Part shown: positions 2,809 to 17,105 of the stretch, in pieces
Layout: each line of letters opens with the position of its first letter
Numbering within the stretch: position 1 is the first letter of the stretch
Origin: an uncultured Bacteroidota bacterium
GTDB lineage: Bacteria; Bacteroidota; Bacteroidia; Chitinophagales; Chitinophagaceae
Direction: 5' to 3'
DNA: 57,643 nucleotides
NCBI GenBank assembly: GCA_903887005.1
Contig: CAISOH010000192.1
Location: 1-57,643, forward strand
The notes under the pieces: model-generated
What the model was told of the DNA's origin: nothing
Seen by the model: the letters and a program-made list of their open reading frames with translations, nothing else
The model's database searches: none
Made by a program: the position numbers and the translations under genes

Positions 2809-5478
2809 ATGAAATTGTTCAAACGGATTTTTATAGGTATAGGAATCATTATATTTCTGTTTATCGCAACTGCCATCATTGTCCCCATATTTTTCAAGGA
2901 CAAAATTATGGCGCTCGTGAAAAAAGAAATGAATGATCAGCTGATTGCCACTGCCGATTTTAAGGATGTGGACATCTCACTTATCCACAGCTTTCCCCAC
3001 CTTTCCGTAAGTATAGTTGACCTGAGTATAGTAGGTAAAGAACCCTTCAAAAATGATACGCTCATATCAGCCAAGAGCATAGATGTGTCACTTGATCTTA
3101 TGAAAGCCATCAATGGCACCTACGATATCCTGAACATAGGACTGGTAAGACCGCGCATTCACGCCATTGTGAATGAAAAAGGCGTGGCCAACTGGAATAT
3201 TACCAAACCAACACCGCCCACACCTACAGCGCCATCCAAACCTTTCTCCTTCAAGCTGCGCAAATATTCTATTGAGAATGGCTTCATTGAGTATAACGAT
3301 GAGCAGGGCAAGATGCAAGTAATTATTGAGAACCTTGACCATAAAGGTTCCGGTGATTTCAGCAGTGATGCCTTTACCCTCGCTACCAAAACTACAATCG
3401 ACGCCTTCACTTTCATCAACGGAAATATCGCTTACCTGCATAAGGTAAATACCAAAATAGACCTCGACCTGGAGATAGATAATAAAACTAACAAATATAC
3501 CTTTAACACTGAAAAGATACAACTGAACGGATTGCGCCTGTCAACAAAAGGTTCCGTGCAAATGCCGGATACCAACAATATGATTGTTGATGTTGTGTTC
3601 AGTACACCATCCAATGATTTCAAAGACATATTGTCATTAGTCCCCGGTGTCTATCAAAGCAACTTTAAGGATATTAAAACATCTGGTAAGCTGTCTCTGA
3701 GCGGCTCTGTAAAAGGGAAGTACAATAAAAAACAAATGCCAGCCTATCATCTGAACCTCGGCATACAGGATGGTTCGTTCCAGTACCCCGACCTGCCGCA
3801 GAAAGTATCTAACATACAGGTGAAACTTGATGTAAATAATCCTGACGGAGTTACAGATCACACAGTTGTGAACCTCGAAAAATGCCATATAGACCTTGGT
3901 TCACAGCCATTTGATTTCCGCATGTTGTTAAAGACTCCGGTATCTGATCAATGGATAGATGCTTCTGCGAAAGGTAAGATAGATCTTACCCAAATGCAGA
4001 AATTCATGAAGATGGAATCGGGTACAAAATTGTCAGGCACTGTAAGCGCTGATGTTTCTGTGAAAGGCTCCATTGCCGCAGCACAGAAAAAACAGTTTGA
4101 GAAACTGGATGCATCCGGCACAATAGGCATTAATGATGTCACCTACGCTTCAAAAGATTATCCTGACGGGGTAAACATTTACAGCCTGGTACTAACCTTC
4201 AATCCAAAAAATGTAACAGTATCAAATCTGAAAGGACAGTATCTGAAAACCATATTCAGCGGAGATGGTGGTATCAACAATTTATTGGGCTACTATCTTC
4301 ACAATGAATCCCTGAGTGGTTCTTTCAATTTTGTTGCGGATAAAATTGACGTAAACAAATGGATGGGTACTGCTTCAACAACACCAACAACTACTGCAAC
4401 TCCTGCCTCAACACAACCATTCCTTGTCCCTTCCAACCTGGATATAGAATTACATGCTACAGTAGGAACTGTGAAGTATGACAATATAACCCTTACCAGC
4501 GTGCAGGGCGGAATGGCAGTCCGCAACCAGGCAGTAACATTGCAAAGTGTTAGTGGTAAGGGCCTTGATGGCACTTTAAAAATGAGCGGTAGCTACTCCA
4601 CAAAAAACGATAAGAAAAACCCCGATATATCATTTGACTATAGCGTAGAAGCAGTTGATTTGCAAAAGACATATACCACCTTTAATACGGTGCAGAAAAT
4701 GATGCCCGCCGGTAAGTATATCTCCTCCGGTAAGATCAACTCAAATCTGACCATGACCGGAAAACTAGGCCCTGATATGAGCCCGGTAATGAATTCACTT
4801 TCCGGCAAAGGCGACATGATGTTACTCAATTGTATTTTGAGCAATTTCCCGGTTACTGACCAGCTTGCCGATAAACTTCACTTAACACAGTTTAAAACCA
4901 TTAACCTCAAAGACACAAAAGTGTTTTTCACTTTTGAAAATGGCCGTGTTACCGTGCAGCCATACAAAATGAATATTGGCGGTATTGATGCTGAAATAGC
5001 AGGTAGCCATGGTTTTGACCAGACCATTAATTATGGAGTAAATCTTGTTGTTCCAACCGCTATGATGGGGTCTGCCGGAACTTCAATGGTGAATAGCTTA
5101 GTAAGCCAGGCGGCAAGTAAGGGCATACCCATAAAGGTGGGAGACAAAGTAAACCTTGCAGTAAAAATAACCGGGACTACTACCAATCCGAAAATAGAAA
5201 CGAACCTTAAAAACGTAGCCGGCGATGCGGTAAGCACTATCAAAGAGGAGATTAAAAAAGAAGTAGCGCATAAAGTGGACAGCGTAAAAACAGTAGTGAA
5301 AACTGCTGTGAAAGATACCGTGAAAGCCATAAAAACACAGGCTGTAAACACAGCAAAAGAAGAATTGAAGAAACAAATATTAGGCGGCAATCCAAACGAT
5401 AAAAAACCGGAACCTGTAAAAGATGCAGCGGATAAAGTGAAGGGTGGACTGAATGATTTGTTTCATAAGAAGAAGTAA
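2809..5478 (+). CDS. AsmA-family protein
   Basis: 889 residues from ATG 2809 ([18 protein letters not shown]...). The reading frame extends to TTG at 2779, but that codon overlaps the -7 box, so I prefer 2809. One N-terminal membrane anchor (about residues 5-28) is followed by a long beta-rich periplasmic region with the AsmA hallmark near the start ([20 protein letters not shown]) and an AsmA_2-like C-terminal half ([20 protein letters not shown]...DAEIAGSHG). The last 90 residues are Lys/Val/Ala/Asp-rich amphipathic repeats ([18 protein letters not shown]), probably helical. AsmA-like proteins act in outer-membrane biogenesis and are related to lipid-transfer bridge proteins. rfbA follows 70 nt downstream with its own -7 box, so a shared operon is not certain. 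Confidence 0.88.
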
Positions 5479-5503
5479 ATCATCATTAACAGGATCTGAA
5501 TTA

Positions 5504-5511
5504 TATATTTG
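5504..5511 (+). promoter_or_regulatory. -7 box upstream of rfbA
   Basis: TATATTTG fits TAnnTTTG and lies 38 nt before the rfbA ATG. No TTG is visible at the usual -33 distance, so this is a weak call. Confidence 0.4.
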
Positions 5512-5548
5512 CAGTAAAAAAAATACTTACCATTCACTAATAAAATAT

Positions 5549-6415
5549 ATGAAAGGAATTATTCTTGCCGGAGGCTCTGGAACACGTTTATTTCCGCTTA
5601 CAATAGCAGTAAGCAAACAACTTATGCCGGTTTATGATAAACCTATGGTATATTATCCTTTGTCCACTCTTATGCTGGCCGGTATGAGAGAAATACTTAT
5701 CATTACCACACCCGAAGACCAGCCGGCATTCAGAAAATTGCTGGGCGATGGCAGCCAGATAGGCTGTAGTTTTGAATATGTCATACAACCCCGCCCGGAA
5801 GGACTTGCACAGGCGTTTATTTTAGGCGCTGATTTTATAGGGAAAGATCCTGCGGCATTAGTGCTTGGCGACAATATATTTTATGGCTCAGGTATGGGCA
5901 CCTTGCTTAAGAAAAAATCTAACCCGGACGGGGCTGTGGTTTTCGCATACCAGGTACACGATCCGGAAAGATATGGCGTGGTGGAATTTGATAAAAGTAA
6001 TCGCGTTATAAGCATAGAAGAAAAACCGGAGAAACCTAAGTCAAACTACGCTGTTCCGGGATTATATTTTTATGATAATGATATTGTCGCCATCGCAAAA
6101 GCAATCAAGCCGTCTCATCGTGGCGAACTGGAAATAACCGATGTCAATAAAGTGTATCTGGAAAAGGGAAAACTGGAAGTGGGTGTATTAGACAGGGGTA
6201 CTGCATGGCTGGATACCGGTACTTTTGACTCCCTTATTCAAGCCGGGGATTTTATTGAGGTTATCGAAAAACGACAGGGACTTAAAATAGGCTGCATTGA
6301 GGAAATCGCTTACCGTAATGGATGGATTGACGATGAACAGATGAATAAATTGGCTACGATCTACATGAAAAGCGGCTATGGCGTTTATCTGAAGAAACTG
6401 ATAGGTAGTCTATAA
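5549..6415 (+). CDS. rfbA: Glucose-1-phosphate thymidylyltransferase
   Basis: 288 residues from ATG 5549 ([18 protein letters not shown]), the usual RfbA length; the frame is open upstream into the asmA-like gene but family alignment fixes this start. It condenses dTTP with glucose-1-phosphate to dTDP-glucose, the first step to dTDP-L-rhamnose for cell-surface polysaccharides. Visible are the nucleotide-binding signature [11 protein letters not shown] near the N-terminus, [20 protein letters not shown], the metal site LGDNIFYG, the substrate-binding [14 protein letters not shown], and [11 protein letters not shown]. The other rfb genes (rfbB, C, D) are not next to it, so it appears here as a single gene. 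Confidence 0.96.
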
Positions 6416-6713
6416 TACAATAACTTCAACTGCAAAAAAGTTCTATTTACTATTTCTTTATTTTTTATAAAGTCTGATAATTGTTTTCGTAAACGTTTTT
6501 TAATTCTTCATTTGGTTTTTGAGAATTAGAAAATATTTTCCAAAGCGCAGCTTTTAGTTGTCAACGTTCCTAAGGGTTTTGATAAATCTGCTATGCGTGA
6601 TTTTCTTTCGCATACACCTCCAAACCTGGTCAACTGCATATAGATCATAACATATGGATGTAAAAAGAACATCTCCCGGAAATGGATATTTTTAATTGGC
6701 TAATTTTACTTTT

Positions 6714-8174
6714 ATGATGAACCTCTCTGCTCCTGAATACATCTCCAACTACATAGGCGGCAGCCTGCAAGCCCCCCTGAACGGGAAATACATGGATAAT
6801 ATAAACCCCGCTACAGGCGCGGTATATAGCCATACACCCGATAGTGATATAAAAGATGTGGAGGAAGCTGTGGGAGCTGCAAAAATGGCATTCCCTTTGT
6901 GGAGCACTACGCCTGCCGAAGAGCGTTTTAAGATACTTAACCATATTGCTCAACTCATAGACGATAATCTTGATGCACTGGCGCTTGCAGAGACCAATGA
7001 TAATGGTAAGCCTCTTTGGCTCAGCAAGCGTGTGGATATACCCCGGGCATCCAGCAATTTCCGCTTCTTCGCTACAGGCATCATGCACTTCAGCACGGAG
7101 AGCCACCAGATGGAAGATAAAGCGATTAATTATACGCTTCGCCAGCCAATAGGTATAGTGGGCTGCATCTCTCCCTGGAACCTGCCTCTTTATCTTTTCA
7201 CCTGGAAAATAGCCCCTGCTCTTGCTGCAGGAAACTGCGTGATAGCAAAACCCAGCGAGGTAACACCCATGACCGCATACTTGCTAAGTATTATTTGCAG
7301 GAAAGCCGGACTGCCACCCGGCGTATTGAATATACTTCATGGCACAGGGCCGGGCTGCGGATCTGCTATAGTAGCACATCCCGATATTAAAGCGATATCT
7401 TTTACCGGCAGTACGCGGGCAGGCAGGGATATTGCAGCTACTGCTGCGCCTATGTTCAAAAAAATATCATTGGAACTGGGCGGCAAGAACCCCAACATCA
7501 TTTTTGCTGATTGCGACTGGGACAAGATGATGCGAACTACATTGCAATCTTCTTTCAGCAACCAGGGACAGATATGCCTGTGCGGAAGCCGTGTATTGAT
7601 AGAAGAAAGCATTTATGAAAAATTCAAAACCGAATTTACAGCCCGTGCTAAAAAACTGACTGTCGGCGACCCGCTGGATGATAACAGTAAGCAGGGAGCA
7701 ATAGTAAGTAAAATGCATTTTGATAAAGTACTCGGTTGTATAGAACTGGCCAAAGAGGAAGGTGGCAAAATATTATCCGGCGGTAATGTAATAAAACTCG
7801 CGGGCAGGTGTGAAAATGGCTTGTTTATTGAACCCACCATTATAGAAGGCCTCGGGCCGCATTGCCGTACTAATTTGGAAGAGATATTTGGCCCCGTGGT
7901 TACTTTACAATGCTTCAGTACGGAAGATGAAGCGCTCCAACTCGCCAACAGCAGCGACTATGGCCTCTCCGCCACCATCTGGACACAGGATGTAAGCCGT
8001 GCAAACCGTGTTGCGGGGAAAGTGCATAGCGGCATCATCTGGATAAACTGCTGGCTGCTCCGCGACCTGCGTACTCCTTTCGGCGGTTTTAAAAACAGTG
8101 GTGTAGGCAGGGAAGGCGGATGGGATGCGTTAAGATTTTTTACAGAGCCGAAAAATGTTTGTATAGAGTTGTAA
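6714..8174 (+). CDS. Aldehyde dehydrogenase, 2-aminomuconic/2-hydroxymuconic semialdehyde dehydrogenase-like
   Basis: About 486 residues from the ATG at 6714 (MMNLSAPEYISNYIGG); a TTG at 6696 is possible but less likely. NAD(P)-dependent oxidation of an aldehyde to the acid. ALDH signatures seen: GCISPWNLPLYLFTWK, the nucleotide loop FTGSTRAGR, general-base motif LELGGKNPNIIF, catalytic Cys region FSNQGQICLCGSRV, and EEIFGPVVTLQ. The C-terminus NCWLLRDLRTPFGGFKNSG is characteristic of the ALDH8/aminomuconate semialdehyde group, which works in the kynurenine and aromatic meta-cleavage routes; Bacteroidota often encode it for tryptophan breakdown. No other pathway gene is adjacent. The stop codon abuts a perfect terminator stem. 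Confidence 0.9.
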   Translation: MMNLSAPEYISNYIGGSLQAPLNGKYMDNINPATGAVYSHTPDSDIKDVEEAVGAAKMAFPLWSTTPAEERFKILNHIAQLIDDNLDALALAETNDNGKPLWLSKRVDIPRASSNFRFFATGIMHFSTESHQMEDKAINYTLRQPIGIVGCISPWNLPLYLFTWKIAPALAAGNCVIAKPSEVTPMTAYLLSIICRKAGLPPGVLNILHGTGPGCGSAIVAHPDIKAISFTGSTRAGRDIAATAAPMFKKISLELGGKNPNIIFADCDWDKMMRTTLQSSFSNQGQICLCGSRVLIEESIYEKFKTEFTARAKKLTVGDPLDDNSKQGAIVSKMHFDKVLGCIELAKEEGGKILSGGNVIKLAGRCENGLFIEPTIIEGLGPHCRTNLEEIFGPVVTLQCFSTEDEALQLANSSDYGLSATIWTQDVSRANRVAGKVHSGIIWINCWLLRDLRTPFGGFKNSGVGREGGWDALRFFTEPKNVCIEL

Positions 8175-8218
8175 TGGTTGTCTTCTAAGATAAGACTTAG
8201 AAGACAACCACTATTTTT
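8175..8218 (+). terminator. Strong hairpin after the aldehyde dehydrogenase gene
   Basis: A perfect 15-bp stem (8175-8189 with 8196-8210, loop 6 nt) starts directly after the TAA and is followed by CTATTTTT. It lies between convergent genes and could serve both strands. Confidence 0.85.
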
Positions 8219-8220
8219 GA

Positions 8221-9219
8221 CTATAAACCTAATAGTCGTGCTATAATATCACCTCTCGTTTCAGTTGCCATTGCGGCAGTTATGGATATAGTATTGGCTG
8301 TTGCAATACCCGTTTGAGCAAAGTAATAAAATGTACCATTCTTGTTTGCAATAACAGCAATTTCAATATTTTGTCCCTTAGGTAGTCTTACAGATGAATT
8401 AGTAATTGATGTATTAGCAGAATTATATGTACCATAAAATGTCTGACTGGAATTTATTTTAGGAAACACTATAAATATCTGGGTATTATAAATGGTATAA
8501 CTATTATCAGGAAAATTAATAGTAATGCTTGAATTAATCGTTGAATCGCCAAAAAAATGGTCGCAATTTATCCAGTTAAAAGTTGTACACGAATCGAATA
8601 AATAATAAATGTTCGGCCAATTATCATAATGGCGGGAAGTATCTTTACCATTATTTGTTGTATCATTTTTGATAACACAATAGCTTTTTGTTCCATTTTT
8701 TGTAGTATCGGTAATAGACCAGGTTGTAACGGAATCACTTCCTGTAACTCCTCCATAATATAATTCCATGCGTTTGGATAAAAAACCAGGTTGCTTAAAA
8801 GCTAAACCATATTTATTAGCGAAAACCTCCTGGCCATTCATTGTAGCAAGAATCTTTATTTGCCCGCCACTTTGAATCAATTGTCCATTAGCAGTTGCTG
8901 ACGTCCGGTTGGCAATCATATCTCCGGGTTTATACATTTCCAGCAATTGAATACTAACGGTACCTGATGTAATGATATTGCCATTTTTATCTTTAAAAGA
9001 ATTAGGATAAAAATTAACTACCGTGCTGTCAGTGCCTATAATCGTTTGATTCTTTCCTGCGGTAACTGTAAAATTTTGTGGTGTTGACCGTAAATCAGAG
9101 AATAGCTGATTTATGGGTGGTGAAATTGTACTTACATTATTATTATGCTTTTTGCAGGCTGCCGCAATGATTAATGAAACACAACAAAGTGTCAATAATG
9201 TTTGATAAATAAGTTTCAT
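8221..9219 (-). CDS. Hypothetical lipoprotein
   Basis: 332 residues from ATG 9219 (MKLIYQTLLTLCCVSLIIAAACKKHNNN); the frame is open 13 codons further upstream but the lipoprotein signal fixes this start. Lipobox IAAAC, then KK and an Asn-rich linker. The mature part is beta-rich and contains TSGTVSIQLLEMYKPGDMIANR and VNFYPNSFKDKNGNIITSG, a pattern seen in Bacteroidota surface proteins of unknown function. There are no catalytic residues I recognise. It is monocistronic and convergent with the ALDH gene. Confidence 0.7.
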   Translation of the reverse strand: MKLIYQTLLTLCCVSLIIAAACKKHNNNVSTISPPINQLFSDLRSTPQNFTVTAGKNQTIIGTDSTVVNFYPNSFKDKNGNIITSGTVSIQLLEMYKPGDMIANRTSATANGQLIQSGGQIKILATMNGQEVFANKYGLAFKQPGFLSKRMELYYGGVTGSDSVTTWSITDTTKNGTKSYCVIKNDTTNNGKDTSRHYDNWPNIYYLFDSCTTFNWINCDHFFGDSTINSSITINFPDNSYTIYNTQIFIVFPKINSSQTFYGTYNSANTSITNSSVRLPKGQNIEIAVIANKNGTFYYFAQTGIATANTISITAAMATETRGDIIARLLGL

Positions 9220-9357
9220 AAAATTAGTTTTAGTTAAAGATAGACAGGGAGTTAACAAAATAGGTTGGAATTATACAATCTTTCTTTTACGGTCAACCTG
9301 CTTTATAACATAATCCTGTTTCCCATTTGCCACAAACAACCTATATTTACAAACTCT

Positions 9358-9864
9358 ATGGATTTGAAAAAATTTAGAATCACAGCCGCCCGGAAAAAAA
9401 AATCATTGTCCGGTTTTCTTGATAAACTTGATGAATTAGTTCCAGAAGAAATGCCTGAGCTTGTAGCGGAGGTGGACGCTACGGTATGGCGTGATGTAAA
9501 TTGCATGGAGTGCGCCAACTGCTGCAAAACGATGACGCCCACATTCAACAAAGCCGATGTCAGCCGCATTTCGGCGCACCTGGGTATGAAGCCGAAAGAA
9601 TTTAAAGATAAGTGGCTGCTTAAGGAAGCAGATTCCGGGGATTGGGTAAATACGACACAACCTTGCCAGTTCCTTGTGGATAATAAATGTTCCATTTATG
9701 AAGTTCGGCCTGCAGACTGCGCGGAATTTCCCCACCACAACAAAAAACCATTTGACCTTTACAACGAAACTTTTAAAAACAACCTTATCCACTGCCCCGC
9801 TACGCTCACCTTAATTGACCGGTTGAAGAAAAAGATAGAGAAGGAATATGAATGGCCTGCATAA
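9358..9864 (+). CDS. YkgJ-family cysteine-cluster protein
   Basis: 168 residues from ATG 9358 (MDLKKFRITAARKKK). The conserved cysteines are plain: CMECANCCKTM near residue 50, then CQFLVDNKCSIYEVRPADC with PHH after it, and a last Cys in IHCPATL. This is the UPF0153/YkgJ (CxxCxxCC) family, thought to bind zinc or an Fe-S cluster; the biochemical role is not established. An upstream in-frame ATG at 9265 would add 31 non-conserved residues, so I reject it. A near-consensus -7 box (TATATTTA) precedes the ATG. It stands alone before yifB. Confidence 0.88.
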   Translation: MDLKKFRITAARKKKSLSGFLDKLDELVPEEMPELVAEVDATVWRDVNCMECANCCKTMTPTFNKADVSRISAHLGMKPKEFKDKWLLKEADSGDWVNTTQPCQFLVDNKCSIYEVRPADCAEFPHHNKKPFDLYNETFKNNLIHCPATLTLIDRLKKKIEKEYEWPA

Positions 9865-10025
9865 TGCAAGCTTTTGTAATAATTTGAAACGGAGAATCTG
9901 CGGGGGGAAAATGCAGAAAAATAATGCCCCTTATTCTGGAAAAATCTATCCCCCTTACTTACCGTCTTTACAGCCGAATATCCGGAATATGATAAAATAA
10001 GGACAGCTAATCTTACATTTACATA

Positions 10026-10033
10026 TAAATTTG
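10026..10033 (+). promoter_or_regulatory. -7 box upstream of yifB
   Basis: TAAATTTG fits TAnnTTTG and lies 23 nt before the yifB ATG at 10057. No TTG is seen at -33. Confidence 0.45.
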
Positions 10034-10056
10034 CCTTTAGTTAATTGTAAGAAAGG

Positions 10057-10923
10057 ATGTTAGTAAAATTATTTGGCAGCGCGGTCTATGGAGTGGATGC
10101 AATAACTATCACGATTGAAGTGGACACTCCGGGAGGGGAAGTCGGCGTATATATTGTGGGATTGCCGGATAATGCTGTTAAGGAAAGCAAAGACAGGGTT
10201 ATATCGGCTATTCAGAATACCGGCTTTGATCGCCCGAGGGGGAGAATGGTGGTGAATATGGCCCCTGCGGATATTAAAAAGGCAGGCGCAGCATATGACT
10301 TGCCTATCGCATTAGGGTTCCTCGCCGCTACCGGGCAATTACCTCCCGAACAACTGCATGAATATGTAATAATTGGGGAGCTTTCGCTTGATGGGACAAT
10401 AAAACCCATAAAGGGGGCCCTGCCGATTGCCATCCAGACAAGGGCTGAAAAATTCAAAGGGCTTATAGTGCCCAGGGCCAATGCACGCGAAGCGGGCATG
10501 GTAAACAACCTTGAGGTATATGGTGTGGACAACATTACCGAAGTGATAGGTTTTTTCAACGGGACACAAACTTTAAAAAGAACAGTAGTAAATACCCGCG
10601 AAGAATTTTTTGACGCCCAAAGCACTTTTGAAATTGATTTCAGCGATGTAAAGGGGCAGGAGAATGTGAAGCGCGCATTAGAGATAGCAGCAGCCGGTGG
10701 CCATAACGCTATCCTGATAGGCCCGCCGGGAGCAGGTAAGACCATGCTCGCCAAACGGCTGCCTACCATATTGCCGCCGCTTAGTTTGCATGAAGCTTTA
10801 GAGACCACCAAGATACATTCGGTAGCCGGGAAATTGCCTGTAAATACTTCGCTGATAGCGCAGCGGCCATTCCGAAGTCCCCATCATACCATCTCTGAGA
10901 AAGCACTATTGTTGTTTCAGTAA
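10057..10923 (+). pseudogene. yifB: yifB/comM Mg-chelatase-like ATPase, 5' part (split by insertion)
   Basis: Residues 1-280 are genuine YifB/ComM: the N-terminal Lon-protease-like ChlI domain (MLVKLFGSAVYGVDA, VGLPDNAVKESKDRV), Walker A GPPGAGKT at about 222-229, and RPFRSPHHTIS. After Ser280 the frame runs into inserted DNA, adds eight foreign codons and stops at 10921-10923. The second half is at 16404-17105. Joining the two at the shared GA restores [11 protein letters not shown] and a 513-residue protein, the normal family length. ComM is a hexameric branch-migration helicase that helps natural transformation in Haemophilus; here Walker A and Walker B lie on separate fragments, so activity should be lost while the element is present. 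Confidence 0.95.
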
Positions 10924-10932
10924 GTAAAATAT
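10897..10932. other. attL: GA crossover core plus left 31-bp arm
   Basis: GA core at 10897-10898, spacer GAA 10899-10901, then the arm 10902-10932 (AGCACTATTG...GTAAAATAT). The arm is the exact reverse complement of 16370-16400. The two-base core is the overlap length expected for serine integrases. Confidence 0.85.
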
Positions 10933-10943
10933 ACTTCTTAAAT

Positions 10944-11594
10944 CTAATTTATTATTAACCTTCTCACTTGCTCTGGCCCGAAAGAATTACCTCTTGATGT
11001 CTTAAATCCTGCTTCATTTAATTCAAAACCAATTTGCCTTAATGACTTGCCAGTTTTGATTAGCAGGTTGATTAATTTGCCTGCTTTTTGATTATTTGAA
11101 TTAGATTTTGCTTTTTCAATCATTTTCAATGGTCCCAGTTTTCTAACTTCAATCGTAAAATTTTCAGGGCAACCTAACTTTTTTCCCTTCAACTTCAATT
11201 GTTGTAAAGCATCCGAGGTGCGAACTGCTATTCTTTTTCTTTCCCATTGTGCGAGAGCACCGAAGATGTGTATTGTTAGTTCGTTTGCGTCAGGCATATC
11301 AGCACAAATGAATTTAACTTTCGTATCCATTAATGTTGATACGAAAGTTAAATTTCTTGATAACCGATCTAATTTCGCTATTATTAAAGTAGAGTTTGTT
11401 TGTTTAGCAAGGTCAATTGCTTTAATCAATTGAGGGCGGTTATCGTTCTTTCCTGTTTCAATGTCAGTATATTCAGCAATGAGTGTTCTATTATTCAAAA
11501 ATGATAGCACAGAACTTTTTTGTGCTTCCAAACCTAAACCACTTAATCCCTGCCTTTGAGTGCTACACCTGTAATATGCTATATATTGTTCCAT
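10944..11594 (-). CDS. Small serine recombinase (resolvase/invertase family)
   Basis: 216 residues. N-terminal resolvase domain (about 1-140) with catalytic Ser11 in YYRCSTQRQ, and KLDRLSR (Arg77, Arg80). The helix equivalent to the E-helix is present (GALAQWERKRIAVRTSDAL). The C-terminus is a short HTH-like region (SLRQIGFELNEAGFKTSRG...FGPEQVRRLI), as in resolvases, without the zinc-ribbon/coiled-coil region of large integrases. It ends 12 nt inside the left arm of the element and reads outward towards it. It could resolve dimers of the circular form or act on its own site at 11615-11654. It is a second recombinase in addition to the large one at the other end. Confidence 0.9.
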   Translation of the reverse strand: MEQYIAYYRCSTQRQGLSGLGLEAQKSSVLSFLNNRTLIAEYTDIETGKNDNRPQLIKAIDLAKQTNSTLIIAKLDRLSRNLTFVSTLMDTKVKFICADMPDANELTIHIFGALAQWERKRIAVRTSDALQQLKLKGKKLGCPENFTIEVRKLGPLKMIEKAKSNSNNQKAGKLINLLIKTGKSLRQIGFELNEAGFKTSRGNSFGPEQVRRLIIN

Positions 11595-11614
11595 TTGGCT
11601 AACCTACGGAGGTT

Positions 11615-11654
11615 GTGTCACAAAACGGAATCCCTCGTTAGCATTTTGTGGCAC
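11615..11654. promoter_or_regulatory. Dyad upstream of the small recombinase (possible res site or operator)
   Basis: 11-bp arms 11615-11625 (GTGTCACAAAA) and 11644-11654 (TTTTGTGGCAC) pair with one G-T mismatch around an 18-nt centre. The dyad lies between the recombinase start (11594) and the stop of the next gene (11706). Resolvase-type recombinases usually bind dyads directly upstream of their gene. Confidence 0.45.
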
Positions 11655-11705
11655 TATTTATCCACAAATAAAATTGAACCTTTTTCCAGCCAGCCTATTA
11701 ATAAA

Positions 11706-12557
11706 TTAATCTTCATTATTATCAACAACTTTCTCAGTGAAAGGGGCTAAATTTATCATGGATATTTTATTGTTAATATATTCTAAACTATCCTCCGGTT
11801 TCCCTTTTAGTATTTCGTGTGAATACCCGGTGGTATTGTAAATTATCTGTGCTAACTGATATACCCAATAAGTCATACTCATTTGAATAATATGACCGTT
11901 AATTTCCTTAGCCATCTGCGTTATTCTGCTTCCATCCCCAATTCTATCAACCAAAATTATTGTTGTCATAGTATGCGAAACAGCACCAACAGTCATGTGA
12001 GTTTCAAACCTACTTACTTTGTCAAGAGAGATTTCAGTATTACCCGGACCTATAAATCCAATGTCAAATCTAACCCCAATTCCAGGCTTTATTAAAATTG
12101 TAGCATCACTTTCTCTTTTTGTCTCTCGTTGACTTAACCAAAAAACCATATGAGATTCAACTGAAATAGAATCAACATATTTAAATCCTAAAATAGAAAG
12201 TACTGACCCTAACACTAATTTTTCAAAAAGTTTGCCGTACATACTTTTTTCCGATCCCCTAATCGCCAAAGCCTGTGTACCAATTGCTAAAAATAAATGT
12301 ATTAACGACTTCCATTTAAATGTAACATCCTCAATAGAAAAATGACTATCAATCTCACCATACAATTCTATGTTCTTTTTAGTTGTAGAATCCAGTGTCT
12401 TTTCAAGGTTATCCAAATAGGTATCTAAATTTTCATCTTTTCCCCTCAGGACATTTTGAATACTCTTACTTGTGAGTCCAACAATCCATAATATAAATGC
12501 TTTCTCCTCTGGCGTTAATTTAGATTTTAATTCTCTTTTGACTAATTCTTTCCACAC
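11706..12557 (-). CDS. Putative type II restriction endonuclease (CfrBI-like)
   Basis: 283 residues, no signal peptide or membrane segment. From memory, the middle part resembles the CfrBI restriction endonuclease family (recognition CCWWGG): SMYGKLFEKLVLGSVLSILG (about 105-124), then RESDATILIKPG (148-159) and VRFDIGFIGPGNTEISLDKV (162-181). Asp165, Glu175 and Lys180 could be the acidic/lysine cluster of a PD-(D/E)xK fold, but spacing differs from the strict ExK form. The N-terminus is helical with a conserved-looking LWIVGLTSKSIQNVLRG. CfrBI-type enzymes are normally paired with a divergent cytosine methylase; none is in this element. The call is an inference; it could be another nuclease or an unrelated cargo protein. 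Confidence 0.5.
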   Translation of the reverse strand: MWKELVKRELKSKLTPEEKAFILWIVGLTSKSIQNVLRGKDENLDTYLDNLEKTLDSTTKKNIELYGEIDSHFSIEDVTFKWKSLIHLFLAIGTQALAIRGSEKSMYGKLFEKLVLGSVLSILGFKYVDSISVESHMVFWLSQRETKRESDATILIKPGIGVRFDIGFIGPGNTEISLDKVSRFETHMTVGAVSHTMTTIILVDRIGDGSRITQMAKEINGHIIQMSMTYWVYQLAQIIYNTTGYSHEILKGKPEDSLEYINNKISMINLAPFTEKVVDNNED

Positions 12558-12610
12558 TACAGGCTAAAAATGAAGCTGGGTTTGCAGTTTCATTTTTTTT
12601 GTGTTTCTTT

Positions 12611-12702
12611 GTAGTGTATAAATTGTGCACTACATGGCATTCATTCGTAAAATCAAGAAAGGAGACGCTATATTGGATACTCAATTACAAAAACATAATT
12701 AA
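12611..12702 (+). pseudogene. Remnant of an IS4/IS1634-type transposase start
   Basis: ATG at 12634 opens a 22-codon frame beginning MAFIRKIKKGDAI, the typical first residues of a group of IS4/IS1634-like transposases (MAF(I/V)RKIKK...YLAEVE...), then diverges and stops at 12700-12702. A small dyad GTAGTG/CACTAC (12611-12616, 12628-12633) directly precedes the ATG. Only the beginning is left; the rest overlaps an ORF on the other strand. It suggests that the cargo region of the element was assembled or trimmed by an IS. Confidence 0.4.
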
Positions 12703-12937
12703 TATGTTCCTTGCTGTTTTTATAGTCATTTTTGATACGGTTGAAAAGTCTATTAGTAATTACATGGTTCAATTCTTTTTCGTGCTTACAACCAGTATTA
12801 GTAATCGTTATTGAATAAATAGAATTGCGGCATAGGGCAAATTTCTTTTGAGAAACTAAATAACCACATGCTTCTTTTATATCGTTAATCACAAATTCAG
12901 TTGTTTTAATTCCTCTGGTCTTTTTAAATAGTTCCAT
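12668..12937 (-). CDS. Hypothetical protein of the element
   Basis: 89 residues (MELFKKTRGIKTTEFVINDI...HINYVFVIEYPI), basic, without signal peptide or membrane segment. I do not recognise the family. Its 3' end overlaps the transposase remnant on the other strand, so the C-terminus may not be original. It lies upstream of the putative endonuclease gene in the same direction with a 110-nt gap. Coding is plausible from length and amino-acid make-up but not proven. Confidence 0.4.
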   Translation of the reverse strand: MELFKKTRGIKTTEFVINDIKEACGYLVSQKKFALCRNSIYSITITNTGCKHEKELNHVITNRLFNRIKNDYKNSKEHINYVFVIEYPI

Positions 12938-12966
12938 TGTTATAGGTTAGGTATTATTCAATCACA

Positions 12967-13023
12967 GGGCTATTAAGATAGCCCCATGGGTTGATAAAAT
13001 ATAAGTAATTGCCAGTAATTGCC
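12967..13023. repeat. Small hairpin and 10-bp tandem repeat inside the element
   Basis: A perfect 7-bp stem (12967-12973 with 12978-12984, loop TAAG) lies between two minus-strand genes but has no T-run on either side. Next to it AGTAATTGCC occurs twice in tandem (13004-13013 and 13014-13023). Both may be protein-binding sites; no function is shown. Confidence 0.35.
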
Positions 13024-13072
13024 GTGATAACACTTTTTATTCCAGAGTAGTGAAAACTCATCATTATATTTT

Positions 13073-13213
13073 TTATAGTCTTGTAGGCGTAATAATTCCG
13101 AACACCAACTTATGATACATGAATAGAACATTTTCTGCCGTCACCTCTTTCTTATTCGCTTTCACCATTTCTATTGCCAATTTCAATAATTCCTTCTTAA
13201 ATGCTTCTTTCAT
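13073..13213 (-). CDS. Small hypothetical protein (46 aa) of the element
   Basis: ATG at 13213 opens a 46-residue frame (MKEAFKKELLKLAIEMVKAN...LVFGIITPTRL) ending with TAA at 13073-13075. It overlaps the 3' end of the HTH gene by 17 nt in another frame, the tight packing expected in small mobile-element operons. The peptide is Lys/Glu-rich and predicted helical. No family recognised. Confidence 0.4.
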   Translation of the reverse strand: MKEAFKKELLKLAIEMVKANKKEVTAENVLFMYHKLVFGIITPTRL

Positions 13214-13445
13214 AAACTTTGTTTTTTTGTTTTCCCTGGACCTGCTTTTTAACTAAATAGTCTATAAAATCAATGAGCGGTTCTTCTTTAAAGAGATGTT
13301 TGTTTTTGTATTTGATATAACTTTCCGGTGGGAAATTGTATCCTTTGATTTGGCGTTTTAAAAATGATAGATTTAAACCGAGCAAATCCTTAATCATATT
13401 TATATCGTACAATCTTTCGGTCAGGTTATTATTATATGTTATCAT
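13197..13445 (-). CDS. HTH protein, possible excisionase-like factor
   Basis: 82 residues. The segment YDINMIKDLLGLNLSFLKRQ followed by YNFPPESYIKYKNKHLFKEE reads like the winged-helix of MerR/Xis-type proteins: a helix-turn-helix, then a beta wing with aromatic residues and a Lys-rich tail. Small proteins of this type often act as recombination directionality factors or repressors of integrative elements. It overlaps its neighbours on both sides (14 nt with the 60-aa gene upstream, 17 nt with the 46-aa gene downstream), so the genes are likely co-transcribed and translationally coupled. The assignment is inferred from pattern only. Confidence 0.5.
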   Translation of the reverse strand: MITYNNNLTERLYDINMIKDLLGLNLSFLKRQIKGYNFPPESYIKYKNKHLFKEEPLIDFIDYLVKKQVQGKQKNKVYERSI

Positions 13446-13614
13446 CGCCTCGCATTATTTTGTTGAACTCATCCTGTAATTCCCATATTGAGGGCCATTT
13501 TTTACTTTCTGGCTCAGTTGAACTAATATATTCATTTAGTTCTTTGCTCTCCTTTATTTGTGCTTGTAACCTTTCTCTTACAAACGTTTTGAAATCTGTT
13601 GTTAAATAACTCAT
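13432..13614 (-). CDS. Small hypothetical protein (60 aa) of the element
   Basis: 60 residues (MSYLTTDFKTFVRERLQAQI...WPSIWELQDEFNKIMRGDDNI), charged, probably two or three helices. The stop overlaps the start region of the HTH gene by 14 nt. No family recognised. Its position at the head of a run of overlapping genes, after the terminator at 13705-13725, suggests it starts its own transcript. Confidence 0.45.
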   Translation of the reverse strand: MSYLTTDFKTFVRERLQAQIKESKELNEYISSTEPESKKWPSIWELQDEFNKIMRGDDNI

Positions 13615-13704
13615 TTTTGTTTTTTTGTTTTTATATCAGTTGAACCGATTTGATTTAGTATATATATAAAATCAAATGTCCCCTTTTGATTAAAGCAATA
13701 AAAA

Positions 13705-13725
13705 ACCTCCCGAAATGTGGGAGGT
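13705..13725 (-). terminator. Intrinsic terminator of the 155-aa gene
   Basis: Perfect 7-bp GC-rich stem ACCTCCC/GGGAGGT (13705-13711, 13719-13725). Read on the minus strand it is followed by TTTTTTATTG. It lies 38 nt after the stop of the gene at 13764-14231. Confidence 0.8.
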
Positions 13726-13763
13726 CTATTTTTCAAATCAATTTATGTATAATGGTGAAGGAG

Positions 13764-14231
13764 TTAGGCGGCGACAGGCTTTTTGAATTTACTTTTAAAG
13801 GGATTTGATAAGTCTAGTTCAACCAACCTAATGATTTCAGCGTCAGTATGAGTTTCTTTGCCTTTTAACTCAGCAATTAATTCAACCTTCTCTAAATTCG
13901 TTAGTCTCTCAACTTCGGTATATACTTCACGAAATTTGAGCGGCAAACTAACTGGATTAATAGTTCCGTCTCTCTTAATGACAAGTAGTATTTGTGTCTT
14001 AAAGATTTTGCCGTCACATGCCTCGTCCAAATAATCTTGTATCTGGTTTGTATCAACTATTGGCTCCAATAGCATATTTTTAAAGTGTTCTAATACTTCG
14101 GCTTCTTTTTGAATTTGACGAGCCGCTAATAATTCTAACACCGCCGGATCAGAAATACTGGCTGTTGAAATAATTTCATTACCTGATTTTGTAGTTTTTT
14201 TAGACATATCAATACCATTTTTAAAAGGCAA
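13764..14231 (-). CDS. Hypothetical protein of the element (155 aa)
   Basis: 155 residues from ATG 14231, or 147 from the internal ATG at 14207 (MSKKTTKSGNEI), which leaves more room for the upstream dyads. The N-terminus is Lys/Ser/Thr-rich, then a helical region (LLAARQIQKEAEVLEHFKNM), a beta segment (KTQILLVIKRDGTINPVSLP) and an acidic/helical C-terminal part ending in a basic tail. No family recognised. It is transcribed alone (terminator at 13705-13725) and divergently from the 59-aa gene, with two dyads between them, the arrangement of an autoregulated control gene. Confidence 0.5.
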   Translation of the reverse strand: MPFKNGIDMSKKTTKSGNEIISTASISDPAVLELLAARQIQKEAEVLEHFKNMLLEPIVDTNQIQDYLDEACDGKIFKTQILLVIKRDGTINPVSLPLKFREVYTEVERLTNLEKVELIAELKGKETHTDAEIIRLVELDLSNPFKSKFKKPVAA

Positions 14232-14256
14232 AACAAAAGTAAAACAATCAATCTAT

Positions 14257-14327
14257 ACATATTGTTAAAAATCAATATGTGTTAATCTTATACGACATAA
14301 ACTTAACCAAGATTAAGTTTATGTCGT
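14257..14327. promoter_or_regulatory. Divergent control region with two dyads
   Basis: Between the divergent genes at 14231 (minus) and 14375 (plus) lie two perfect inverted repeats: ACATATTG/CAATATGT (14257-14264, 14273-14280) and a 15-bp repeat ACGACATAAACTTAA/TTAAGTTTATGTCGT (14292-14306, 14313-14327; 6-nt centre). Neither has a T-run in terminator position for a flanking gene, so operators for a control protein are more likely. Confidence 0.6.
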
Positions 14328-14374
14328 CATCAATAAACTTGATTGTTTGAAAGGAAAGCAATTAATTTTGTGAA

Positions 14375-14554
14375 ATGACAAGCGATGAACTAACCTTAAT
14401 TCAAAACCAGATTTATACACAGATACTATTAGGCGAATTCAAACGCCAAAGAAAGGAAGGAGCCAAAGAAAACGCTGACTTTCTTATTGATAAGTATCAA
14501 ATAGATAAAATGACTGCTGAAAAATTAAAAAAGATTTTAGCCGAAAATTACTAA
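14375..14554 (+). CDS. Small hypothetical protein (59 aa) of the element
   Basis: ATG 14375 to TAA 14552-14554, 59 residues (MTSDELTLIQNQIYTQILLG...MTAEKLKKILAENY). The protein is highly helical with a balanced charge pattern. AAGGA occurs about 20 nt before the ATG. It is the only plus-strand gene of the element, sits behind the double dyad, and converges with the large recombinase gene (stop at 14569, 15-nt gap). No family recognised; position suggests a regulator or a directionality factor. Confidence 0.5.
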   Translation: MTSDELTLIQNQIYTQILLGEFKRQRKEGAKENADFLIDKYQIDKMTAEKLKKILAENY

Positions 14555-14568
14555 CCGAACTATTAAAC

Positions 14569-16320
14569 CTAAAAGCCTGTAATAGTTATCCCCTCGCCAT
14601 AATCTTCATTTGAATTTTTCACCTCTTGATGTTTCAAAATAGTAAGTGCTTTTGATTCGGTTCTTATTTTATGCCAATTCTTTTTGTAGATAACATCAAT
14701 CTCACCTTTGAGGTGAAATTGTGTCAATTGATCCAATTTGTAGTAAATGAAAATGTTGTGATGATAGTTATCGGTTTGAGAATTGTCCGACATAATAATA
14801 ATCTTATCCACAAACGCCCTTACATAACTTTGCTTTTCTTCAAACGTCTCAGCAATTTTCATTCCTTTTGTAAATTCCTTCACTACTTGTAGTATTGGTC
14901 TTTTATTGATTACCAAAAAGTTATCGTTCTCAACATCTTTTATCATTCCCTGTTGTTTTTCAATTTCGCCTTCATACTCTTTCATTAGAGAATTATATAC
15001 CGAATCCTTTATCTTCCCTTCATTATAGTTCCTTGCAAGTGATAGGAGATGTTTAGTGTTTTCAGCAATTACGCTTTCACCATGTTCTTTGGTCTTATAG
15101 TACATTTTTACACCCTCTCCACTTTCCATGTATTTGTAAGTATTAATTACCTCTTTTTCAAAATTTAGCAAGTTGTTCCAGACTAAATTCTCCAAATAAT
15201 CTATATCAATGCCTCTATTTCCGCACCACTCCGCTTTATATCTATGACTTAAACACTTATAGGCTTTATCTCTTAAATCAATTCTCTTATGACCGTAAAA
15301 ACTTTTGCCACACTTTCCACACCTAATTAGCCCCTTTAATAGAAATTGATTTACAACCTTTCCCACATTAGTATAAGGTGCTCTTTTGAATTTCATTTTT
15401 TCTTTCATTAGGGTTTGAACAAGGTCAAATTTTTCAGCGTCAATAATAGGCGGAACTGAGATAGTTAATTCAGCCCATTTTTTATCGCCTTTATAAGTTG
15501 TGTTCGTCAATAATGAATATACGACTGAGTCACGCCAAACAAAATCTTTTGCTTTTTTTACTTTATTAACAATCTCTTTTTCTCCTGTTTGCTTATTTGT
15601 AACACTAATTTTAATTGTCATATCACCATCGGAGTTCTTAATCAAATTTCTTTTTGTCGGAATTCCTTTTTCATTTAATAAGCCAGCAATTGTTTGTGCG
15701 CCTTTGCCTTCTATATACCACTTAAAAATCTGTTTGATTACTTTCGCTTGCTCCTTATTTACCACCAATTTCTTATCCACCTTGTCATAGCCATATAGCA
15801 TTAATCCACCTCCGCCTGCTGTGTTGCCAGCCAAAATTGAATTTTTTGCGCCCGCACTTGTTCTTACTTTAATTAAGTTTCTTTCCTGACTGGCAAATAG
15901 TCCTTGAAATCTCATTGCCAATTCAACCGTTTCATTTTTTATATCAACTTCTCCACTTTTATCAAAAATTCTTATCCCAGATTTCTTAAACATGGTAATT
16001 AATACCTGTGGTTCAATATAATCACCATCTCTACTTAACCTATCAATTTGAACTGTATATAAACCACCAATACCACCTTCACCCAATAAGTTTATTAAAC
16101 TTTTAATGCCTGGTCTATCAACCCAGTTAATGTCACCCGATACGCCAGAATCATCAAACACTTTGTAAGTCCAACCTAATTCTTTCGCTTTAACTATGCC
16201 CCTATCCATTTGATCCTGTAATGAGTATCCCTCTTTAACTTGCCTGCCGGTGCTAACACGAATATAAATTGCTAGGTGATTTGGCAGAATTTTCTCTATT
16301 TTGCTTTTCTTTTTACTCAT
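14569..16320 (-). CDS. Large serine recombinase (site-specific integrase)
   Basis: 583 residues. Resolvase catalytic domain at about 15-165 with catalytic Ser23 in YIRVSTGRQ, Arg21, and QIDRLSR (Arg94, Arg97). The Recombinase domain follows (LMLYGYDKVDKKLVV...VVYSLLTNTTYKG), then a zinc ribbon with Cys334/Cys337 (IRCGKCGKSFYG) and Cys356/Cys366, and a long helical/coiled-coil segment at about 380-500. This is the full architecture of phiC31/Bxb1-like integrases. The gene starts 50 nt from the right inverted repeat, the usual int-att order, and is the obvious enzyme for insertion into yifB. On the minus strand TATCTTAG upstream is close to a -7 box. Confidence 0.95.
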   Translation of the reverse strand: MSKKKSKIEKILPNHLAIYIRVSTGRQVKEGYSLQDQMDRGIVKAKELGWTYKVFDDSGVSGDINWVDRPGIKSLINLLGEGGIGGLYTVQIDRLSRDGDYIEPQVLITMFKKSGIRIFDKSGEVDIKNETVELAMRFQGLFASQERNLIKVRTSAGAKNSILAGNTAGGGGLMLYGYDKVDKKLVVNKEQAKVIKQIFKWYIEGKGAQTIAGLLNEKGIPTKRNLIKNSDGDMTIKISVTNKQTGEKEIVNKVKKAKDFVWRDSVVYSLLTNTTYKGDKKWAELTISVPPIIDAEKFDLVQTLMKEKMKFKRAPYTNVGKVVNQFLLKGLIRCGKCGKSFYGHKRIDLRDKAYKCLSHRYKAEWCGNRGIDIDYLENLVWNNLLNFEKEVINTYKYMESGEGVKMYYKTKEHGESVIAENTKHLLSLARNYNEGKIKDSVYNSLMKEYEGEIEKQQGMIKDVENDNFLVINKRPILQVVKEFTKGMKIAETFEEKQSYVRAFVDKIIIMSDNSQTDNYHHNIFIYYKLDQLTQFHLKGEIDVIYKKNWHKIRTESKALTILKHQEVKNSNEDYGEGITITGF

Positions 16321-16369
16321 ATAATTTGCTCTTTGACATATCCAGACATCCGAATACTACTAAGATAGC

Positions 16370-16405
16370 ATATTTTACTTACTGAAACAACAATAGTGCT
16401 CCCGA
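16370..16405. other. attR: right 31-bp arm plus GA crossover core
   Basis: Arm 16370-16400 (ATATTTTAC...CAATAGTGCT), spacer CCC 16401-16403, GA core 16404-16405, after which yifB resumes. In the circular form the joined ends would read arm - CCC GA GAA - arm, i.e. a perfect 31-bp inverted repeat with GA exactly in the middle of an 8-nt centre. Confidence 0.85.
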
Positions 16406-17105
16406 TGCTGCTTTGGTTGGAGGGGGTGGCATACCACAACCCGGTGAAATATCCCTGGCGCATAATGGGGTATTGTTTCTTGATGAACTGCCGGAATTCA
16501 AACGCTCTGCACTGGAAGTAATGCGCCAGCCCATGGAAGAGCGCAAGGTGAGTATTTCACGCGCAAAAGTGAGCATTGAATTCCCTGCAAGTTTTATGCT
16601 GATCGCATCTATGAACCCCTGCCCCTGCGGTTATTTCAACCATCCCGAAAAAGAATGTACCTGCCCCCCGGTAATGGTGCAGAAGTACCTGAATAAAATA
16701 AGCGGCCCGCTCTTAGACCGTATAGACCTGCATGTGGAAGTAACACCTGTCGCGTTCAGCGAACTGTCTTCCACAAAAACCACAGAAGCAAGCACCAGCA
16801 TCCGCGAGCGGGTTCTGAAGGCGCGCGACATACAGGACAAACGTTTTGAAAAAAACGAAGGCGTCTATTGCAACGCACAAATGGGCAGCAAGCTGCTGAA
16901 GGAAATCTGCGTTATCAACCAGGTAGGACAGAACCTCTTAAAAACCGCCATGGACAGGCTTAACTTATCCGCGCGGGCATATGACCGTATCCTGAAAGTA
17001 AGCCGCACTATAGCAGACCTTAGCAATAGCGAAGATATCCGCCCGGAGCATCTTGCAGAAGCTATACAGTACAGGAGTTTAGATAGAGAGGGATGGGCAG
17101 GCTAG
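16404..17105 (+). pseudogene. yifB: yifB/comM Mg-chelatase-like ATPase, 3' part
   Basis: Continues YifB from Asp281: [20 protein letters not shown], Walker [11 protein letters not shown], the sensor region [15 protein letters not shown] with the Cys cluster (CPCGYF...CTCPP), arginine-finger region [11 protein letters not shown], and the C-terminal helical lid ending LDREGWAG. The sequence shows no frameshift or stop, so the half is preserved and the insertion is probably recent or reversible. An internal ATG at 16413 could in theory start a truncated protein, but it would lack Walker A. Confidence 0.94.

Follow-up and report, generated by a model that had tools for sequence, protein, structure and literature searches.

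The DNA analysed here (the window) is a contig of 57,643 nucleotides (nt), CAISOH010000192.1, from an uncultured bacterium of the family Chitinophagaceae (Bacteroidota) in which the gene yifB/comM is interrupted. The interruption is a precisely bounded serine-integrase island of about 5.5 kb (positions 10897–16403) that sits at one exact codon of yifB, with its boundaries, its core and the empty site in relatives all in hand. We consider it very likely, from the sequences compared below, that the island's own large serine integrase inserted it at yifB codon 281, with recombination across a 2-bp GA core.

An island bounded to the base within yifB

The gene is interrupted between positions 10896 and 16404, and both of its parts lie on the forward strand. 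The 5' part (10057–10896, codons 1–280) encodes the ChlI domain and the beginning of the AAA domain (Pfam ChlI and Mg_chelatase; TIGR00368 positions 2–279). The 3' part (16404–17105, codons 281–513) continues with Pfam Mg_chelatase positions 90–205 and Mg_chelatase_C. Joining the sequence up to 10896 to that from 16404 onward restores the frame, giving a conserved 11-residue stretch and 513 codons plus a stop. The dinucleotide GA stands at both ends, as the core of attL at 10897–10898 and as the core of attR at 16404–16405, where it supplies the first two bases of the Asp281 codon. Since the bases beside it differ at both ends (T-GA-G on the left and C-GA-T on the right), the shared core is exactly 2 bp. 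The wider flanks are CTCT-GA-GAAAGCAC on the left and GTGCTCCC-GA-TGCTGC on the right, and GA are the sole bases common to them.

All three same-genus genomes tested (G097, G171 and G222; we refer to genomes, contigs and loci by G, C and L numbers) have an uninterrupted yifB of 513 amino acids (aa), 84–86% identical, and the island's own genome has yifB only as two parts. The G+C content is 0.29–0.37 in the island interior, taken in 500-base windows, compared with 0.47–0.50 within the yifB parts. No structured RNA reached Rfam gathering scores at 10800–16500, and the window contains no tRNAs. The original prediction, made from the window's sequence, had held that yifB is whole apart from an insertion between codons 280 and 281, with GA at both ends and with the Asp281 codon and the 513-aa length regained on joining. 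The computed junction agrees in each respect, and the uninterrupted codon expected in relatives is what the same-genus genomes contain.

The integrase and its attachment sites

Beside the right end, as originally described, lies the gene for a 583-aa large serine recombinase (14569–16320, reverse strand), the start codon of which is 83 bases inside the right core. Its Pfam Resolvase, Recombinase and zinc beta ribbon domains occur together in one protein, the arrangement of a large serine integrase, and it matches the integrase family phrog_95 at 2.2e-79. Its sequence matches in the PDB include the integrase chains of TP901-1, A118 and SPbeta. In other collections, relatives were found in 117 plasmid and 317 phage records, all at less than 60% identity, and at three distant clostridial loci in the genome-contig collection; the viral contigs gave none.

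The island ends in inverted repeats (10902–10935 and 16367–16400) that are 97% identical over 34 nt. The original prediction had missed these, as it had the small serine recombinase, the CfrBI-type endonuclease gene and the 59-aa gene described below. Counted from the core, the two arms (10899–10936 on the forward strand and 16366–16403 on the reverse strand) agree at 34 of 38 positions; none of 200,000 random pairs taken from within the element was as good, the best agreeing at 24. A 24-nt repeat probe, allowed up to 3 mismatches, has just these two occurrences in the island's own genome. Each arm carries GTTTCAG at +16 to +22 from the core, and the same holds for all six arms of the clade (support 100/99) formed by the integrases of the window, G196 and G742.

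In the structure of a Listeria integrase on attP, the zinc-ribbon motif occupies positions 16–24 of a 25-bp half-site (PMC3783163). Because the position of GTTTCAG matches that motif, the best explanation of the terminal repeats is that they are the two attP half-sites, GTTTCAG being the presumed zinc-ribbon motif of each. The same paper proposes a 5-bp inward shift of the motif in attB. When attP positions 16–24 were compared with attB, the offset predicted from this shift (11) came top of 19 offsets on the right half (0.48) and second on the left.

We propose that a circular form of the island, carrying attP, recombined with the chromosomal attB at the GA core through the action of the island's own integrase. 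The enzyme is presumably active, and excision would need an element-encoded factor, for which the 82-aa and 59-aa proteins are candidates. Any route by which the island moves between cells is conjectural. By dividing its AAA domain, integration is expected to inactivate YifB.

Related insertions at the same codon

An integrase search of 244 family genomes (E 1e-60) gave three positives, counting the island's own genome. The other two integrases, from G196 (58% identical) and G089 (33–34%), both adjoin the 3' part of yifB. Searching with an alignment of the three sequences (E 1e-50) gave four positives among 395 genomes of the phylum and five among 396 of the order, own included in each. In six of the seven further genomes (G742, G241, G338, G460, G596 and G745), a yifB part interrupted at codon 281 adjoins an integrase. 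In G719, yifB is intact and the integrase is located elsewhere; G745 contains another integrase, on contig 15, that is not next to yifB. Of 19 distinct integrase-like places (21 loci, of which three represent a single place), 9 adjoin a yifB part, window included, and these 9 include the three closest relatives (G196 at 58%, G742 at 54% and G089 at 33%). The ten places without one within the stretch examined are five in the island's own genome, the three clostridial loci, G719 and contig 15 of G745.

At the codon-281 junctions, GA was the starting dinucleotide in all 11 readable on the left and all 13 readable on the right, after one 'left' row from G166, a false match within the 3' part, had been discarded. 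Conservation of the Asp codon partly dictates the GA on the right, a constraint that does not apply on the left. The original prediction had named differing ends in other copies as evidence that would count against it, and in those related inserts whose ends were readable, the ends fall at this same GA. In G132 (ends of C15 and C6; L088 and L089), one contig ends with the codon-281 GA and the other begins there on the reverse strand. In G166 (end of C52; L090), the contig with the 3' part begins at GA, and the start of the contig carrying the 5' part is there or immediately beside it. Contig breaks at GA would fit the coexistence of integrated and empty forms in the sample, among other possible causes.

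The ten elements with both arms readable show arm symmetry concentrated at +9 to +24, with a mean of 12.0 matches over these 16 positions within elements compared with 6.7 between arms of different elements; eight of the ten have 11–16 matches. From +25 to +38, the window island has 12 of 14 matches, the other elements have 2–8, and the cross-element mean is 4.6. The arms of G338, G745, G197 and G057 in this set lie on different contigs, and G089, G132 and G166 were excluded since their two arms were not to be had.

Where both yifB parts are on one contig, the inserts measure about 5.5 kb (window), 7.3 kb (G742), 10.5 kb (G241), 11.7 kb (G460), 35.7 kb (G196) and 39.9 kb (G596). The element had been called unusually compact: it is indeed the smallest seen, and the description loses some of its force in that three inserts of about 7.3, 10.5 and 11.7 kb, as well as a 35.7-kb prophage, occupy the same codon. 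The prophage is the G196 insert, in which ten scanned proteins included matches to terminase large subunit, portal, tape measure and holin. In all four fully bounded compact inserts, PADLOC recognises a restriction or modification gene and Pfam a small serine recombinase, a count with no base rate from other islands. An endonuclease and a methyltransferase were both recognised in two of the four (G742 and G241), an endonuclease only in the window and methyltransferases only in G460. Among incomplete inserts, that of G057 has the end of a methyltransferase gene near its right end, and scans of two proteins each from G338 and G197 yielded none. The G241 insert also encodes OLD-like and DprA-like (ShosA) proteins. 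On this evidence the island belongs to a wider set of serine-integrase elements at yifB codon 281, among which are a prophage and compact islands with restriction or modification genes.

HUH-like proteins also occur in related compact inserts. Two of these, recognised by eye (L083:4985-5527 and L094:5467-6159), look related to each other and both have an HFH motif with YHTKQ further downstream, resembling HUH replication initiators; the L083 protein had no Pfam match. A third (L084:2748-3254) has a Pfam match below the cut-off.

The yifB survey and points against integrase-driven insertion

Surveying yifB itself introduces less bias than searching by integrase. A yifB match at E 1e-20 was present in 220 of 234 family genomes. 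The survey for broken copies examined the 29 genomes with multiple or weak matches, a set that does not contain G062, G112 and G141, each with one further match beside a full-length one, or the remaining single-match genomes. Together with the three breaks known beforehand, eight of the 234 are broken at codon 273–285: the island's own genome (G000), G089, G196, G132, G166, G197, G037 (by contig ends) and G057.

Several observations weigh against insertion by an integrase of this kind. Such an integrase is present in only three of the eight broken genomes (own, G089 and G196); at E 1e-15, none was obtained from G132, G166, G197, G037 and G057. The contigs of G132 and G166 stop at the junction, and the scan of about 19 kb next to the 3' part in G197 was incomplete. 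The inserts of G132 and G166 may be absent from the assemblies, and other integrases may be at work in the five genomes. Our confidence is somewhat lowered by these five. The same-codon relatives of the previous section were found through the integrase itself and so cannot show how often an integrase is the cause. The yifB-281 integrases do not form one clade in a tree of 18 rows, where four label changes are needed. Arm symmetry is slight in two of the ten elements (G596 and G745, with 5 and 7 matches). On the left attB half, the predicted offset of 11 came second (0.39) to an offset of 8 (0.40). Lastly, the symmetry of the window's attP extends to +37, which exceeds a 25-bp half-site and is unexplained.

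A single clade for all yifB-281 integrases is unsupported; 31 of 500 label shuffles required as few changes. Twenty-four rows had been prepared for the tree and six were dropped (five codon-355 rows and G200) because the proteins were incompletely recovered; the row label 'other' includes places where the target was not worked out. The original prediction had also favoured serine-integrase chemistry, and the enzyme's domains, the 2-bp GA core, the empty site in same-genus genomes and related integrases at codon 281 elsewhere uphold it.

Cargo and small genes of the island

Seven element open reading frames (ORFs) were scanned with Pfam, NCBIfam and PHROGs; the 59-aa ORF was put to PHROGs only, and three ORFs of 52–64 aa were left out. 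The original prediction had presented the element as lacking relaxase and phage genes, with which these scans agree. The element is not bare: its genes include those for a small serine recombinase and a restriction endonuclease.

The small serine recombinase (216 aa; 10944–11594, reverse strand) has a resolvase/invertase N-terminal domain (PF00239, 5.4e-23; phrog_125 DNA invertase, 2.8e-28). Within its gene, at 11311–11354, is a 17-nt perfect inverted repeat with a 10-nt spacer. Next along the window is a CfrBI-type Type II restriction endonuclease gene (283 aa; 11706–12557, reverse strand), which matches PF09516 at 7.2e-15 over profile positions 66–242 of 257 and PADLOC REase_II at 1e-53 over positions 100–341 of 355. 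This family occurs in six of 234 family genomes, own included, and the other five match from profile position 3–5 (G181 in two pieces). The island's gene is apparently truncated at its 5' end, and no methyltransferase that would complete a Type II restriction-modification pair was recognised among the scanned element ORFs. With the N-terminal part apparently missing and no methyltransferase recognised, we take the gene to be probably a remnant.

The stretch 12558–13196 contains only an 89-aa ORF (12668–12937, reverse strand) with no convincing relative. As a possible remnant of an HUH replication protein it was aligned with three HUH-like proteins, none of which matched convincingly. A weak phmmer match to a G218 recombinase (7.8e-5, or 4.9e-4 over a larger set) is not believed.

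An 82-aa protein (13197–13445, reverse strand) has relatives in the yifB elements of G742 and G338 (phmmer 1.6e-12 and 1.8e-6). AlphaFold predicts a winged-helix-like fold with a predicted local distance difference test (pLDDT) score of 79. None of its Foldseek matches reached E ≤ 0.001, the matches including RacA (0.09), TorI excisionase (0.13), the pathogenicity-island packaging protein 6hn7 (0.24) and Tn916 Xis (0.50). The protein is a candidate regulator or directionality factor. Its gene is adjoined by a 60-aa ORF (13432–13614, reverse strand) weakly similar (phmmer 1.4e-4) to an ORF of the G742 element (L083). That relative also lies between the 82-aa homologue and the integrase; in the window, a 155-aa and the 59-aa gene intervene before the integrase. 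The 155-aa ORF (13764–14231, reverse strand) has no family match, and tblastn at E ≤ 0.01 found only itself in the loci compared.

The 59-aa gene (14375–14554, forward strand) is convergent with the integrase gene. Its product is 74–79% identical among the window island, the G196 prophage and the G089 element, even though the adjacent integrases are only 58% (G196) and 33% (G089) identical to that of the window. The gene was found in four of 234 family genomes (E ≤ 1e-4), all four copies being inside yifB insertions (window, G196, G089 and G218). The G218 copy (2.8e-11) is inside a different yifB insertion, where its neighbour is an ArdC-like gene (by eye) and not the integrase. PHROGs matches are weak (an unknown family at 0.0035 and an excisionase family at 0.11). 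The structural model consists of two helices (pLDDT 93 for the best model and 66–71 for the other four), and no PDB match fell below E 6 (best 6.3). A universal partnership with the integrase is unsupported, as tblastn found no such gene in the G742 element, the integrase of which is 54% identical. We regard the gene as a candidate integrase partner and no more. Between the divergent 155-aa and 59-aa genes lies a 36-nt palindrome (14292–14327) with 15-bp perfect arms and a 6-nt loop, possibly an operator. No such palindrome was found upstream of the 59-aa homologues in G196 and G089.

The large serine recombinases of Tn4451 and Tn5397 (TnpX and TndX) have GA dinucleotides at their joints, and those elements carry mobilisation or conjugation genes. 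Among the seven scanned ORFs of the island, no relaxase or coupling protein of an integrative and conjugative or mobilisable element was found, no terminase, portal or tail gene of a prophage, and no transposition gene of the kind expected of an AbaR or Tn7-like comM island. For the core genes of a phage satellite (AlpA-like regulator, primase, packaging interference), the only candidate is the 82-aa winged-helix-like protein with its weak fold matches.

What kind of element the island is

Two readings of the island's nature are compatible with integrase-driven insertion. The first is that it is what decay has left of a yifB prophage or a larger restriction-modification island, which we think quite possible, if somewhat short of an even bet. 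The restriction gene without its N-terminal part and without a recognised methyltransferase fits such decay, as do the stretch holding nothing other than the 89-aa ORF and the presence, in the 35.7-kb prophage at the same codon, of the 59-aa gene and a 58%-identical integrase. Against it, the integrase, both half-sites and the core look intact, the 82-aa and 60-aa genes are common to the compact G742 element in the same order, and no structural phage gene was recognised.

The second is that the island is a phage satellite, sharing its integrase type and site with yifB prophages and packaged by them. The related integrase and the 59-aa gene of the G196 prophage, the compact size, the defence genes of related compact inserts and the weak match of the 82-aa protein to 6hn7 are consistent with this. 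We think it improbable, given that no capsid, packaging or replication gene was recognised and that the 82-aa fold matches are all above E 0.001. It is similarly unlikely that all parts of a bolder proposal hold together, namely that the compact 5–12 kb yifB-281 islands are a distinct class that has integration machinery (integrase, attP type and the window's 59-aa gene) in common with yifB prophages, has a small serine recombinase along with its restriction-modification cargo, and propagates at those phages' expense while disabling a DNA-processing gene that would help the host to remove them, with the 59-aa or 82-aa protein as directionality factor. This proposal is weakened because the 59-aa gene was not found in G742 and full restriction-modification pairs occur in only two of four compact inserts.

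The reading as a transposon, with the inverted repeats as transposase ends, GA as a 2-bp target duplication and the serine recombinases as cargo, could draw on the 34-bp inverted repeats at the very ends, on the direct 2-bp repeat and on the five same-codon genomes without an integrase of this type, and we reject it as very improbable, with those five genomes as a reservation, because there is no transposase among the seven ORFs scanned and because codon and integrase recur (inserts at codon 281 in many genomes of several families, nine beside a serine integrase, though found by integrase search) and in the other elements the arms match mainly over +9 to +24, a span that corresponds to an integrase half-site.

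Other breaks in yifB

A second hotspot lies at codon 350–360, where both yifB parts were found in at least five genomes (G218, G070, G219, G209 and G082; L110 and L111). Four of the five (G218, G070, G219 and G209), and also G015, have a different serine recombinase, of about 500 aa, no more than 1 kb from a yifB part. The G218 insert at this site is about 20 kb and includes a VirD4/TraG-like protein (by eye). G089 has a second break near codon 222–224 (L028, G089:C25, about 3991-12250), with a small serine recombinase and Type I restriction-like genes nearby (by eye); the 3' part at codon 281 is on another contig than this break of the 5' part. Extra yifB fragments accompany a copy spanning codons 1–513 in G216 (C1 333820-335358, 334637-334888, 340900-341394 and 394567-395055), where that copy has internal stops, and in G225 (C15 45907-46263 and 67295-67522). 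These fragments are possibly tied to elements of the codon-355 site.

Relation to known systems

The island can be set beside several published cases. Of predicted site-specific integrases, 12.4% target Mg-chelatase-like genes, on which distantly related integrases converge, and competence genes are enriched among targets (PMC10083194). The island has the same kind of target gene, as YifB is in the Mg-chelatase-like family. The main text of that paper contains neither 'yifB' nor 'Bacteroid', and its passages on the chelatase-type target give no codon or cargo. Since YifB fits the published description, the hotspot is known in kind and is not new, and the surprise attached to it by the original prediction is reduced accordingly. 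A literature search turned up no paper combining at least four of serine integrase, phage satellite, Bacteroid, restriction-modification and chelatase.

The site occupied by A118 of Listeria is a competence gene, comK. The A118/LI integrase resembles that of the island in domain set, in a motif 16–24 from the central dinucleotide and in 25-bp half-sites (PMC3783163); the island's enzyme differs in being about 27% identical, in having another target and in an attP symmetric to +37. In Acinetobacter baumannii, comM is likewise interrupted by mobile elements carrying defence systems such as CBASS and Zorya. It is inactivated in 22% of strains, either by AbaR or by further elements that often encode defence systems, and ComM loss has been suggested to hinder the removal of mobile elements (PMC11472951). 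AbaR is a Tn7-like element according to the same paper; the island instead has a serine integrase and a 2-bp core.

The mechanism itself is ordinary and cleanly displayed, in a known kind of hotspot gene. What makes it worth following is the recurrent restriction cargo, the integration genes in common with a prophage and the over-long palindromic attP. The window provides a base-exact attP and attB for a group of integrases that use one conserved codon in several families of the phylum, and these could serve as an integration tool there. The island adds a serine-integrase, restriction-carrying counterpart to the Acinetobacter comM insertions and bears on why mobile elements target this gene.

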